Source: Thermococcus sp. JdF3
GTDB taxonomy: Archaea > Methanobacteriota_B > Thermococci > Thermococcales > Thermococcaceae
DNA: 64,000 bases
Direction of reading: 5' to 3'
Assembly (NCBI RefSeq): GCF_012027495.1
Contig: NZ_SNUK01000003.1
Span: 124,001-188,000 of the forward strand
In this document: positions 1 to 4,012 of the stretch, piece by piece
How positions within the stretch are numbered: position 1 is the first letter of the stretch
Layout of the letters: the number at the start of each line of letters is the position of its first letter
Notes under the pieces: model-generated
The model's input: the letters and a program-made list of their open reading frames with translations, nothing else
Told to the model about the DNA's origin: nothing
Databases searched by the model: none
Program-made: the position numbers and the translations under genes

Positions 1-711
1 CAGACCTTCACCGGGCGGGCGCTCTTCGAGAAGGTCTTCGATGACGTCTCCGCATACCCCGTCGGCCCGGCGATGTTTGTCATAGCCCTTCCACTCTTCC
101 TGGCTATCCCGGGGCTGGTGGAAAACCACTACCTCCCCGAGTGGCTCTTCTACGCCCACTTCCACGGCCTCCAGAGCCCGGGCTGGGCCTTCTTTGTGGG
201 CCTCGGCGCGATGTTCCTCTCGGGGTACTTTGTCTCCCTGGTGAGCGATGACCCGATAGGGGCGATAATGGGGCTGACCGCCGGCCTGGTCGTTGGAATG
301 GTAGTCCTCGTCGGCCTAGTTCTCCTCGGAATATACGTTGAGGGTCTGGGACACGAGGGTCTTTCAACCCTGCTGGCTCTCGGTGCCCTCGCGGCGAGTC
401 TCTTCGTCTGGCTCTTCTCCGCGGTCTCCCTGGCTCCCCTCCACTACGAGGGGAAAAGCTCGATCCCGCCCCACCTCTGGTTCTGGGGGCTGAACGCGGT
501 TGCCCTGCTCCTCTCCGTTCCCCTCCTCCCCAAACTCTGGCGCCCGGGGGAGGGGACCTTCATGACGGCCCTCATGGTTGCCCTGTTCTTCCTCGTGGCC
601 CTTGGGGAGGAGAGGAAGGAGCTCGGCCCCCTCTGGACGGGCTTGCTGGCCCTAATGGCCCTGCTCGCGGGCCTTTGGACCGGTTTGGGCATTCAGTTCG
701 CTCTGGGGTGA
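1..711 (+). CDS. Multi-pass membrane protein, 5' end outside window
   Basis: The reading frame is open from the first base, so the true start probably lies upstream; an internal ATG at 73 is the first one visible. About 236 residues are seen, with six to seven hydrophobic segments separated by short loops, including a glycine/valine/leucine-rich pair near the middle. I do not recognise the family. The stop lies only 4 bases before the CARF-PIN gene, so the two are probably co-transcribed and may be translationally coupled. That context raises the possibility of a membrane partner in a CRISPR-linked signalling system, but nothing in the protein itself shows this. Confidence 0.75.
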   Translation, partial: QTFTGRALFEKVFDDVSAYPVGPAMFVIALPLFLAIPGLVENHYLPEWLFYAHFHGLQSPGWAFFVGLGAMFLSGYFVSLVSDDPIGAIMGLTAGLVVGMVVLVGLVLLGIYVEGLGHEGLSTLLALGALAASLFVWLFSAVSLAPLHYEGKSSIPPHLWFWGLNAVALLLSVPLLPKLWRPGEGTFMTALMVALFFLVALGEERKELGPLWTGLLALMALLAGLWTGLGIQFALG

Positions 712-715
712 TGGC

Positions 716-2161
716 ATGAGGGCGTACGTGACGACCGTTGGAACCTCACCCGAGGCGGTCTTCAACCCCCTCTGGTACCTCGTCGAGGTTCACGGCTGGG
801 TTCCCGATGCCGTTTACCTGCTCTGGAACGACGGCGTGAGGGAACAGCTTGAGGGGGTGAAGGGACTGATAGAACGCCTCTCCAGCGCCTACTGCGTGGG
901 GATAAACGTCATAGCCAGCGAAGGCCTGAGGTTCAGCGAGGATAACCCGATGGAGTTCAGGGAGAGGGCCGCCTCGCTCATCGGCTCACTTGTCTCTGAG
1001 GGACATGAGGTCATTGTCGACATAACCCCCGGCAGGAAGTTCATGAGCGCCCTCCTCCTCGGCGCCGCGATGGCGAGGGGGGCGGGCGAGATAACCTACC
1101 TCCACCTGGAGGACTGGAGGCGCTACGCAGGGAAGCTGCTCTTCGAGGTTCCGATGGTGGAGCAGAGGCTCTTCAGGAAGGGGGAGCTGACGGGAAAACC
1201 CGGAAATGTCTCCCTGCCTGGAAGGAGGCGGGGGCCCGCGGAGAGCCTCACCGTGAACAGGGAGTCGCTGATGGCGCTCCTCGACTCCCTGTATCTCGAT
1301 GGGTTGAGGAGGTTCAGGCTGGCCGTCAGGAGCGAGGAGATAGCGTCCGTGAAGCTGGGCAGGCGGGCGAGGATAAGGGTGAGGGAGTATTTGACCCTCG
1401 ACCGGGAACTCCACGGCGGGCACACGATGGTGAAGGAGGCGGTGATAGCGGGAATGGGGAGCTTCAGGAACTGGGACGAGCTGAAGGAAGAGGTCAGGGC
1501 GTTACTCCGCTCCGGAAGGCCGCTCTACATCGGCTTTGACACTAACGCCCTCCTCTTCCGCGTTCCTTCAAGGGTCATCGCAGAGGGGGACTTCTACAGG
1601 AACGGCAATCTGATATTCGACTTCGCCTACTCCGACGAGGTTCAGGTCGAGATAGGGCGGCAGGTGAACGAGAAACTGCCCTTCGACAGGAGGCTCGGCA
1701 CCTACTCCAACCAGCCAACGCCGCGGGCAAGGCTGGCCTCCCTGGGCAGGGTCGAGCTGGTAAAGCTGAGGGAGATGGGAGCTGAAAGGGCCGACAGCAG
1801 GAGGGACGAGCGGGGAGACACGAAGATAGCCCTCGACTACAAGGCCTTCGCCGAGGAGAAGGACGCGAACGTGATGGTCATCACCCTCGACGACAGGGCC
1901 TACGCGGAGATGGACGCGCTCCGCGGGAGCGGGCTGGTTCCCTTCAGGCTGGAGTGGGAGTTCTCCTTCGGGGAGAACCTTGAGGGGAGCTGGGAGGCGC
2001 TGAGGGACACGCTCTACACGCTGGCGGTAACCCTCGGCGAGCTCAACGTCCACACCTACAAGCTCTACGGCCTCTGGCACGGCAAGAACTCGGAGGACTG
2101 GGAAAATGAGAGGGTGAGGCTGAACGGCTTCGAGTACGGCAGGGTTTTCAGGGTTCTCTGA
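716..2161 (+). CDS. CARF domain-PIN-like nuclease fusion protein
   Basis: A 481-residue two-domain protein. The N-terminal part (about 1-150) has a CARF-type Rossmann core: a GTSP turn at residues 9-12 and the diagnostic segment DITPGRKFM at 102-110, the usual ligand loop for cyclic oligoadenylates made by type III CRISPR complexes. After a charged linker of about 110 residues comes a PIN-like domain starting FDTN (Asp275), followed by Glu312, the motif GDTK (Asp368) and DD at 392-393, which fit the acidic metal site of PIN ribonucleases. By family knowledge this would be an RNase switched on or off by cOA. It follows the membrane protein by 4 bases and overlaps the convergent gene at 2148-2630 by 14 bases. 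No cas gene is adjacent. The fold calls are by motif only; PIN is less certain than CARF. Confidence 0.8.
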   Translation: MRAYVTTVGTSPEAVFNPLWYLVEVHGWVPDAVYLLWNDGVREQLEGVKGLIERLSSAYCVGINVIASEGLRFSEDNPMEFRERAASLIGSLVSEGHEVIVDITPGRKFMSALLLGAAMARGAGEITYLHLEDWRRYAGKLLFEVPMVEQRLFRKGELTGKPGNVSLPGRRRGPAESLTVNRESLMALLDSLYLDGLRRFRLAVRSEEIASVKLGRRARIRVREYLTLDRELHGGHTMVKEAVIAGMGSFRNWDELKEEVRALLRSGRPLYIGFDTNALLFRVPSRVIAEGDFYRNGNLIFDFAYSDEVQVEIGRQVNEKLPFDRRLGTYSNQPTPRARLASLGRVELVKLREMGAERADSRRDERGDTKIALDYKAFAEEKDANVMVITLDDRAYAEMDALRGSGLVPFRLEWEFSFGENLEGSWEALRDTLYTLAVTLGELNVHTYKLYGLWHGKNSEDWENERVRLNGFEYGRVFRVL

Positions 2162-2630
2162 GCCTCCTTATCCTTTCGTTCACCATCGCAATGTGAAAGC
2201 AACCATCTATGAGTTCGGGCCCTGTCTGGAGGGACTTGCACTGTTCAACTGGAAGAAGTGAACGAAAACCGATGAGTTTGAGGTGAAGTATCTTGAGCTC
2301 AACTGAGGGGTTTGGGTCATCGCATTCGAGCTTCTCGATTCCCTGCTCCATCAGCTCTTCCGCGGCCCTCTGAAGGTGGCCCTCAAGCTCGTCAAACCAC
2401 ACGACTGCCTTCGCAATGAGCCGTTCCGCCTCGTCTTTTGTCAGCGTGCAAAGGGTGCAGGCTCCCTCAAATGTCCTGAGGCCTTCCAGGTACGCCCTAG
2501 CCTCCATACCAAAGAACACTCTGACGGCGGGATAGTCGCTGAGGGAAAACACCACCACGGAGTTTCTCATTACCACGAATAGGTCTCCTCCAGGGAACCT
2601 ATCACCGCAGACACCGGCAAGGTACCTCAC
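2148..2630 (-). CDS. Hypothetical protein, 160 aa
   Basis: Start chosen at a GTG preceded by GGGTGGTG, a typical Thermococcales ribosome binding site; the longer open frame upstream lacks a good start and is proline/glycine-rich noise. The protein has a hydrophobic beta-rich N-terminus and a helical acidic C-terminal half with several cysteines (CTLCTL, LECDD, EQCKS, DGCF). I do not recognise the family. The Cys pairs could bind metal, but spacing is irregular. It is transcribed from a promoter near 2840 together with the 37-residue ORF and lies between two CARF-protein genes, which is the only functional clue. Confidence 0.65.
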   Translation of the reverse strand: MRYLAGVCGDRFPGGDLFVVMRNSVVVFSLSDYPAVRVFFGMEARAYLEGLRTFEGACTLCTLTKDEAERLIAKAVVWFDELEGHLQRAAEELMEQGIEKLECDDPNPSVELKILHLKLIGFRSLLPVEQCKSLQTGPELIDGCFHIAMVNERIRRLREP

Positions 2631-2659
2631 GACACCACCCCCGAAAAAAGGGAAAGGGA

Positions 2660-2773
2660 TCAGCGGCGGCGAAGCCAGCGGAGCAGGAGAAGATCCCTGG
2701 TGAAGTCGGCCCTGCCGAGGGGCGAAGCGCTGAAGAACCGGAACAGCCGAAGGAGTCTCTCTATCAGACCCAT
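2660..2773 (-). CDS. Possible small basic/hydrophobic protein, 37 aa
   Basis: An ATG preceded by GGAGGTG opens a 37-codon frame rich in Arg, Leu and Phe (ends LLLLRWLRRR). It sits about 40 bases downstream of a good minus-strand TATA box and 30 bases before the start of the 160-residue gene, so it would be the first cistron of that transcript. The ribosome binding site is very close to the ATG (2-3 bases), which weakens the call. It could be a leader peptide, an amphipathic membrane peptide, or not translated. No homologue is recognised. Confidence 0.35.
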   Translation of the reverse strand: MGLIERLLRLFRFFSASPLGRADFTRDLLLLRWLRRR

Positions 2774-2835
2774 CACCTCCGGGTGGTTGTCTCACCCATC
2801 CACCCGGAGGCGATTCTATCTTGGCAACTTGCAGA

Positions 2836-2850
2836 TTTATAAACTTTTCG
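2836..2850 (-). promoter_or_regulatory. BRE/TATA promoter for the 2148-2773 transcript
   Basis: On the minus strand the sequence CCGAAAAGTTTATAAATC fits an archaeal BRE plus TATA box. Transcription would begin about 25 bases downstream, near 2812, upstream of both the 37-residue ORF and the 160-residue gene. Confidence 0.6.
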
Positions 2851-2875
2851 GTTGCCGGGTTGGACAGCGGCCGCA

Positions 2876-4012
2876 CTAAAGTTTTCTGTTCAGGGATTTT
2901 GCAACCTCATTCAACAAATCACGGACGGAATAGACATCAAGGTCAACGCGGTAGAGGCTCTCCTCTGGCTCAACGTCTTGGATTCCCTGCTTCACGTACT
3001 CTGCCTGACATTCCTCCCTTATCGCTTCTATGGCCATTGCAACACTCACCAGACTTTTGCCACTGGTTATATCGAAGGTTATCTCCCCTCCTTCGCGTTC
3101 AAGAAGTTCACCGAGGGCCTTCTTTATGGCTCTCCTGCACTCTTCAATGTCATCAAAATCTCCAGCAGGGACCACTTCGAACTCCAGAACCTCAGTTCCG
3201 GTCCCGAGGCTTTCCCTCTGCCCATCATGCCACCTTATCAGAATTGGTCTTCCTGTGCACTCCGAGAGCTTGAGCAGAAAAGCCTTCATCTTGGCCTTGA
3301 AAGCAGATTCGGGAACCACTACCCCCTTCACCATTAGGTAGTTCTCAATGAACTCCCGCTCAACTGGTTTTAATCTCTCCCATTTCAGGTTGATTACTGA
3401 TTTAGAAACCAGCAGAAAGACCTTATCCAGCCGCGGCAGGTGATAACTGACGGCCTGGAAGAGCGGTACGATGTTCTGCATTTTGCTCTCGTTGTTGAGC
3501 TTTGCGCTGTTTTTCCTGAGGTCTTCGCAGTCCCCTCCTAAAACTTTATCTGGATCCCAGTTAGGAATGCTCAGCGCACTGACTAGGTATTTTGTTTTTT
3601 TCAGTTTCTTTCTTCTGGAAGCCTTTTGTTTTGGTTCCACCACCCAGTAAGTAAGGAGAACTATTGAGATTGTATAAAGGATTGTCCCCATCGTTGCCGC
3701 CAGCCGTCCTTCCACCACACTATCGGGCAACCATGCGGTTAAAACCGCCGCCAGGAGAACAAAGAGGATCAATCCCACAAGGCTCTCCACCTGGCCAAGG
3801 ACGAGCCCTATGAACTGTGTCGAGAGAAAAGCCTCTAGCCCAATATCTGCTTTCTTTCGTGCCTCAAAGTAGAGAAGAACTGAAACGATAAAAACTCCGG
3901 CCGAAGACATCAGGAATAAGTGGCCTACACTGGAGGTGTTGCTTAGGTAAAACGAGGTAAGGGGTAGTAGGAGGAACACTATCAGTGCAACGTCCTTTCT
4001 TCCGAGCCCCAT
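2876..4012 (-). CDS. Membrane-anchored CARF-like protein
   Basis: A 378-residue protein read from an ATG at 4012, divergent from the Rli1 gene 60 bases away. Residues 8-24, 31-50, 66-94 and 107-124 are hydrophobic and give about four membrane helices; a strongly basic stretch follows at 128-141, so the C-terminal domain should face the cytoplasm. That domain (about 142-378) carries DITSGKSLVSVAMA at 314-327, closely similar in form to the DITPGRKFM segment of the nearby CARF-PIN protein and typical of CARF sensor domains. By analogy with other TM-CARF proteins it may change membrane permeability or signal when cOA binds. No catalytic domain is visible. It lies in the same cluster as the CARF-PIN gene. 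Confidence 0.75.
   Translation of the reverse strand: MGLGRKDVALIVFLLLPLTSFYLSNTSSVGHLFLMSSAGVFIVSVLLYFEARKKADIGLEAFLSTQFIGLVLGQVESLVGLILFVLLAAVLTAWLPDSVVEGRLAATMGTILYTISIVLLTYWVVEPKQKASRRKKLKKTKYLVSALSIPNWDPDKVLGGDCEDLRKNSAKLNNESKMQNIVPLFQAVSYHLPRLDKVFLLVSKSVINLKWERLKPVEREFIENYLMVKGVVVPESAFKAKMKAFLLKLSECTGRPILIRWHDGQRESLGTGTEVLEFEVVPAGDFDDIEECRRAIKKALGELLEREGGEITFDITSGKSLVSVAMAIEAIREECQAEYVKQGIQDVEPEESLYRVDLDVYSVRDLLNEVAKSLNRKL

Follow-up and report, generated by a model that had tools for sequence, protein, structure and literature searches.

What do two CARF proteins do when the DNA around them appears to hold no cas gene at all? This question is raised by a stretch of 64,000 nucleotides from Thermococcus sp. 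JdF3, hereafter the window (bases 124001-188000 of a 378-kb contig, NZ_SNUK01000003.1, in a genome of 2.14 Mb), near whose left edge lie genes for a CARF protein joined to a PIN-like nuclease (CARF-PIN) and for a CARF protein with membrane segments (CARF-TM). An earlier note, made from the sequence alone, had described them as an ancillary cluster without cas genes, consisting of an RNase arm and a membrane arm that work with a type III CRISPR system encoded elsewhere. The answer that we favour, at a probability of about 0.78, is that the locus serves an adjoining type III-B (Cmr) system as its cassette of ancillary effectors, one arm being an RNase and the other acting at the membrane, both driven by cyclic oligoadenylate; the core of that proposal thereby stands as the best-supported reading. 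It is carried by gene order, by the families to which the proteins belong, by a predicted CARF fold, by an intact PIN quartet, by the GGDD motif of the neighbouring Cas10 and by linkage that recurs across species.

The apparent lack of cas genes is an artefact of the window edge, because cas6 and the cmr, cas10 and csx1 genes lie just left of base 1. In the 20 kb that lead up to and into this edge (L002, contig 106001-126000), the gene order is a CRISPR array, cmr6, cmr5, cmr4, csx1, cmr3, cas10 and cmr1 on the minus strand, a second array, and then cas6, MEM and CARF-PIN on the plus strand, MEM being the name given here to a 404-residue membrane protein encoded between cas6 and CARF-PIN. The last three genes share one strand, from which the cmr genes, csx1 and cas10 diverge. 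Seven of the genes (cmr1, cas10, cmr3, csx1, cmr4, cmr6 and cas6) are confirmed by PADLOC, csx1 as CARF9--CARF_HEPN; cmr5 is named by position and sequence, with no profile behind the name. The two arrays, of four repeats each, flank the cmr operon (L002 5670-5932 and 16169-16424), and csx1 sits among the cmr genes, as it does in Pyrococcus furiosus. The cas6 gene ends about 0.5 kb left of window base 1 and 9 bases before MEM begins, and the MEM stop at 711 is followed, after four bases, by the CARF-PIN ATG at 716. An orphan, cas-less cluster is consequently ruled out, since cas genes stand directly outside the window edge; the type III link of the earlier note holds, and only its placement of that system elsewhere in the genome does not, the locus adjoining a cmr operon with both Cas10 and an array.

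The genome search for Cas10 that the note had proposed as a check returned a single match over the cut-off of the Cas10 palm family, at contig 118470-118928. The cyclase motif GGDD is found at residue 667 of this Cas10, whose first 147 residues contain no HD dipeptide. In other systems, an HD dipeptide lies near the N-terminus of Cmr2, and its absence here suggests that the HD nuclease activity may have been lost, in which case effectors that respond to cyclic oligoadenylate may matter more in this organism. The neighbouring Csx1 has an RxxxxH motif (RNFIAH at 417). The type III-B system of P. furiosus is alike in combining a Cmr complex with Csx1 and a Cas10 that bears GGDD (PMC7192623); the present locus differs in the lack of an HD dipeptide from the first 147 Cas10 residues, and here the MEM, CARF-PIN and CARF-TM cassette lies alongside.

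The features of the cassette, in window coordinates, are as follows.

1-711, plus strand: 3' part (236 of 404 codons) of the gene for MEM, a polytopic membrane protein; the gene starts at contig position 123497.
716-2161, plus strand: CARF-PIN, 481 amino acids, assigned by PADLOC (CARF_m1--CARF_PIN), AlphaFold2, Foldseek and VIA.
716-1210, plus strand: CARF domain of CARF-PIN, approximately residues 1-165, from VIA matches and PDB profile matches.
1019-1045, plus strand: CARF motif DITPGRKFM, residues 102-110, with D102 invariant.
1517-1975, plus strand: PIN-like nuclease region, approximately residues 268-420, with an acidic quartet in the realigned PIN rows.
1538-1540, 1649-1651, 1817-1819 and 1889-1891, plus strand: the PIN quartet D275, E312, D368 and D392, in that order.
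2148-2630, minus strand: open reading frame of 160 amino acids, sharing 14 bases with CARF-PIN where the 3' ends of the two genes overlap.
2876-4012, minus strand: CARF-TM, 378 amino acids, N-terminal membrane segments and C-terminal CARF, assigned by PADLOC (CARF8--CARF_TM).
3638-3991, minus strand: residues 8-125 of CARF-TM, with four membrane segments predicted by a Kyte-Doolittle scan.
3053-3073, minus strand: CARF-TM motif DITSGKS, residues 314-320, read from the sequence.

The assignment of the first protein as a CARF-PIN nuclease, made originally from short motifs, is borne out by PADLOC, in which CARF_m1--CARF_PIN (PDLC01973) matches over the full length at E 6.7e-213 and CARF_PIN (PDLC01068) comes second at 1.8e-137; the motifs themselves, DITPGRKFM together with FDTN (D275), E312, GDTK (D368) and DD (D392), are all present in the reading frame. 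Pfam returned CARF-type families below cut-off only, and a profile of 14 relatives matched 9jxw, 7z55, 3qyf and Sso2081 in the PDB at E 0.0002 to 0.005. On the structural level, the comparison of a predicted model with known templates, likewise proposed in the note, points to a Rossmann-like CARF fold in the N-terminal part: the AlphaFold2 model, built on a 60-row alignment, has a mean predicted local distance difference test score (pLDDT) of 83.9 and a predicted template modelling score (pTM) of 0.66, and its residues 1-165 match the solved CARF domains of ring nucleases, Can2, Cad1, Cam1 and Csm6 at VIA Z 12-17. D102 is invariant in 14/14 sequences, as are D102, P105, G106, R107, K108 and F109 in all 31 CARF rows realigned alone, and D275, E312, D368 and D392, together with R339, W454, K457 and W462, in all 31 PIN rows realigned alone. 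Matches to TAL effectors proved to be repeat artefacts, no single stretch passing alone.

The solved structure nearest to the CARF-PIN model is SiRe_0806 of Sulfolobus islandicus (Foldseek E 3.3e-14; VIA Z 18.0 over 369 residues at a root-mean-square deviation, rmsd, of 14.6), although VIA rows are mostly driven by the CARF part, so that a PIN family could be missed there. According to the deposited records, it is titled 'PIN domain-containing protein' and exists in apo form (9jxw) and with cyclic tetra-adenylate, cA4 (9jxx); the match spans both parts of the CARF-PIN model. The two proteins differ in sequence (about 16% identity) and length (429 against 481 amino acids), and the rmsd of over 13 Å means that their two parts are placed differently. 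A literature search found no recognised experimental study of a CARF-PIN protein, though the SiRe_0806 structures have been deposited; Makarova 2014 mentions, among CARF proteins, two PIN-associated families and one that is membrane-associated (PMC4012209).

The membrane-anchored CARF protein of the earlier note is equally recognisable, with PADLOC CARF8--CARF_TM (PDLC01944) matching residues 11-376 at E 2.2e-92 and DITSGKS lying, as had been described, behind four hydropathy segments (Kyte-Doolittle; residues 8-26, 29-47, 77-95 and 107-125), all of which precede the CARF domain. Profile comparison by hhalign pairs the C-terminal half with the CARF domain of CARF-PIN (probability 83, E 9.1e-6), DITSGK falling over DITPGR, and T316, G318, S323, A325 and M326 are invariant in 12 aligned rows; PDB sequences gave weak matches only, the best of which, at E 0.26, is a CARF nuclease. 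Judged by these profiles, both CARF-PIN and CARF-TM are clear new members of known families, from which neither departs notably, apart from the fact that most CARF-PIN loci outside Thermococcus are split into two frames.

CARF-TM may be compared with two CARF-type membrane proteins. In Cam1, a type III-linked protein with an N-terminal membrane helix and a C-terminal CARF that depolarises membranes on cA4 (PMC10808066), each subunit has a single such helix and about 206 residues; CARF-TM, with four predicted segments and 378 residues, lacks the Cam1 traits (single helix, about 200 amino acids), and no PDB sequence match to Cam1 was obtained. Cap1, a CARF-like pore protein set out in a preprint (PMC12642688), is alike in uniting several membrane helices with a CARF-type sensor domain and differs in having two helices and DUF4579, to which CARF-TM has no match. 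By analogy with Cam1 and Cap1, CARF-TM would be expected to disturb the membrane.

The third component, MEM, had been suspected to belong to the cassette by virtue of ending 4 bases before CARF-PIN, and its distribution among 94 Thermococcales genomes, this one (G000) included, supports this suspicion. MEM occurs in 16 of them, all 16 of which also carry CARF-PIN, full or broken, and Cas10, and 15 of which carry CARF-TM. In 13 of the 16 it lies no more than 217 bases, measured between matches, from CARF-PIN or CARF-TM; the exceptions are G018, where it stands beside cas6, G032, where it is 1.4 kb away, and G006, a genome without CARF-TM in which a distant MEM (28% identical) lies about 805 kb away. 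By this linkage, MEM is to be counted with the CARF-PIN/CARF-TM cassette. Its own nature is less readily assigned: about 12 hydropathy segments were found (6 to 12 in relatives), PADLOC and Pfam gave no family and the PDB no sequence match, no NCBIfam or Pfam family was matched by more than one of 14 relatives, and profile comparison with CARF-TM returned no similarity (hhalign probability 0.3). The AlphaFold2 model, based on a two-row alignment, has a mean pLDDT of 38.0. Four charged or polar residues in or near membrane segments (E141, D147, H316 and Y317) are invariant in 14 rows. Acidic residues and a histidine in MEM may be reminiscent of intramembrane proteases.

Taken as a mechanism, the cassette would operate as follows. 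On binding of a target transcript by the Cmr complex, Cas10 would make cyclic oligoadenylate, most likely cA4, a choice suggested by the P. furiosus Cmr complex, which makes mainly cA4, the activator of Csx1 (PMC7192623), and by the deposition of SiRe_0806 with cA4. Binding of cA4 to the CARF domain of CARF-PIN would activate its metal-dependent PIN nuclease, so that RNA is cut both by this protein and by Csx1, and binding to the CARF domain of CARF-TM would cause the membrane helices to form a pore or to perturb the membrane in some other way. MEM, as third member, would probably act as a membrane effector or as a modulator of the membrane arm. The presence of CARF-PIN, a CARF8 membrane protein and a family-less membrane partner beside a thermophile Cmr system means that the effector arms could be removed one by one.

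The same survey supports a link between the cassette and Cas10 and indicates that the cassette is portable. Matches to Cas10 were found in 36 genomes, to CARF-PIN in 21 (full-length in 17) and to CARF-TM in 19, including some broken copies; Cas10 is present in 20 of the 21 genomes with full or broken CARF-PIN, in all 17 with the full-length protein and in 17 of the 19 with CARF-TM, G010 and G014 being the exceptions. The order of the cassette genes varies and the linkage stays. In G017 (L078, 5764-19242), CARF-PIN, MEM and cas6 are 97%, 95% and 96% identical to those of the present genome and CARF-TM is 31% identical, and the cas6-MEM-CARF-PIN block stands beside type III-A csm1-5, a CARF3 Csx1 and Csx3, not beside cmr genes. 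Together with the locus of G005 described below, this indicates that the CRISPR module and CARF-TM are exchanged around a stable core, a pattern consistent with effectors that all respond to one shared second messenger. Broken copies were also observed, of CARF-PIN in G032, G018 and G058 and of MEM in G058, with a partial second MEM in G032 (L093, L095 and L096), a sign that the cassette may be decaying in certain lineages.

Several points weigh against a type III effector cassette of this kind. The 60-row alignment behind the CARF-PIN model contained 29 PIN-only rows whose first part had been aligned to CARF columns; the PIN part was therefore modelled on a partly wrong alignment, and it is for this reason that the residue counts given above were retaken on separate PIN-row and CARF-row alignments. 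Around residues 291-370 the model shows block pLDDT values of 60-84. The PIN part of the window's own protein matches no Pfam family, and among ten PIN proteins tried, PIN_4 came over cut-off in one (relative L117) and below it in two more. Furthermore, the hypergeometric p-values for linkage are uncorrected for shared ancestry, and adjacency to type III genes is not universal, since in G007 some 946 kb separate the cluster from the Cas10 match and in G005 (L088, 5562-9578) CARF-PIN begins 9 bases after cas3 of a type I-B profile, with cas4 upstream. Finally, sister pairs, in which CARF and PIN are encoded by two genes, occur in genomes without a Cas10 match.

How the arms of the cassette divide their labour allows other explanations. 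CARF-TM and MEM could form one two-part membrane effector, in which CARF-TM senses cyclic oligoadenylate and MEM is the channel or enzyme that it gates. The presence of CARF-TM in 15 of the 16 MEM genomes would suit such a unit, as would matches that lie within 92-217 bp of each other in seven genomes (G005, G007, G011, G023, G058, G067 and G072), the invariant charged and polar residues of MEM, and a correlation of 0.69 between their identity matrices (Mantel p 0.0005, 13 shared genomes). This correlation is, however, no higher than that between CARF-PIN and MEM (0.74; CARF-PIN and CARF-TM, 0.60), and partners are mixed between species: the near-identical MEM of G000 and G017 goes with the dissimilar CARF-TM noted above, and G000 and G023 share 59% identity in CARF-TM but 25% in MEM. 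CARF-TM moreover occurs without MEM in G010, G014, G016 and G068, and the distant MEM of G006 without CARF-TM. An obligate pair is weakened by this mixing, despite the correlated matrices, and the exchange around a stable core likewise speaks against it; we hold the two-part effector to be an unlikely explanation. Comparably improbable is that CARF-PIN serves mainly as a regulator or off-switch, either as a ring nuclease or as a cutter of specific RNA such as tRNA or crRNA, and not as a bulk RNase. Its CARF domain is structurally near ring nucleases (7pq3 at Z 16.8, 7z55 at Z 16.1, Sso2081 entries at Z 14.2-15.6), and csx1 already supplies an RNase arm; yet the same domain also matches the effectors Can2, Cad1 and Cam1, and every realigned row has kept a PIN quartet that would be dispensable if the protein were a ring nuclease and nothing else.

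A more radical explanation would treat the CARF genes as defence-island orphans answering a signal other than that of Cas10. For the fused form encoded in the window we hold this to be very unlikely, since it tracks Cas10 in all of its full-length carriers and stands here in line with cas6. What lends the idea some weight is the related two-gene pairs, of which 52 of 80 Thermococcales carriers have no Cas10 match, as have 29 haloarchaeal genomes, none of them matching PF22335.

The present genome itself carries such a pair outside the window (C2:360332-361793; L006 1483-2962, with the PIN frame at L141 8768-9793), in which a gene for a 162-residue CARF protein (PADLOC CARF_m1--CARF, E 5.1e-77) overlaps one for a 337-residue PIN protein (CARF_m1--CARF_PIN, E 5.2e-16); its CARF accounts for a second, weak match seen in this genome at C2:360332. 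Origin of CARF-PIN by local fusion of this pair is not favoured, because on the fused-family profile PDLC01973 the genome's own pair (L006; E 1.7e-14 and 5.2e-16) is outscored by the two-gene form of Archaeoglobaceae (L101; E 4.5e-55 and 1.6e-43). Strong matches to the PIN partner occur in 80 of the 94 Thermococcales genomes, this one included (any match in 83, the three weak ones being the fused protein). In 62 of the 80, a CARF half was detected no more than 250 bases from the PIN partner, 40 of these 62 being without Cas10; in G056 the halves are split between two contigs, and for the majority of the remaining genomes no CARF half was found with the fused CARF as query. Cas10 is present in 28 of the 80. 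Among 42 genomes judged near-closed (no more than 5 contigs, at least 98% complete), 34 carry the PIN partner, 22 of them without Cas10. A type III RAMP family, taken as a control, was found in 35 of the 94 genomes and in only two of the 52 Cas10-less carriers (G027 and G045). The PIN quartet is complete in each of 20 pair sequences, which come from 17 genomes. A conserved Cys-rich protein of about 150 amino acids, presumably DUF2284-like, was also observed in the same stretch as the pair at ten of ten loci (L141 7393-7857 and equivalents in L142-L150), directly upstream of it here.

A wider scan of genome contigs yielded 43 loci, among which a single open frame covers both halves in the Thermococcus locus alone (L098). 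At 40 of the other 42 the halves form separate open frames, which differ in reading frame at 37 loci and share it, with a stop between them, at three (L099, L100 and L111), and L103 and L140 have one half only. L099 (9968-11479) stands apart from the 37 in that a single stop codon separates CARF and PIN in the same frame. Cas10 was matched in 8 of the 40 genomes behind these loci, namely Thermococcus and seven others that include Archaeoglobaceae and Methanoperedens. The distance between Cas10 and the pair is about 5 kb at two loci, L101 (Archaeoglobaceae) and L120 (Freyarchaeota). The haloarchaeal result (PF22335 in 0 of 29 genomes with the pair) is to be read with genome completeness not given and with no haloarchaeal Cas10 as positive control. 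At one haloarchaeal locus, in Halorubrum yunnanense (L105 3659-11091), genes for a VWA protein, a HEAT-repeat protein, an ADP-ribosylglycohydrolase, CARF and PIN form a run, and the three upstream families have members in 9, 10 and 11 loci.

What is new in these results is an undescribed membrane family, MEM, tied to CARF-PIN and CARF-TM, together with the occurrence of CARF/PIN pairs where no Cas10 is matched in the genome. Given the 52 Cas10-less carriers, part of the CARF/PIN family probably answers another signal. A broader proposal joins both observations and is put forward tentatively, its chances being somewhat below even: MEM would represent an undescribed class of type III membrane component without CARF or any other recognisable sensor domain, and CARF/PIN would be an old archaeal module, usually encoded by two neighbouring or overlapping genes and working without Cas10 on a non-CRISPR nucleotide signal, of which the window's protein would be a fused, type III-linked branch. 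Should the pair indeed answer a ligand not made by Cas10, CARF sensing outside CRISPR would become directly testable in archaea with genetics.

Between the two CARF genes of the window, the 160-residue gene described in the earlier note was recovered as an open reading frame on the minus strand, with no curated family over cut-off. As a core component of the cassette it was rejected, because matches occur in only three of the 94 genomes (this one, G023 and G044), at each of which the gene adjoins CARF-PIN.

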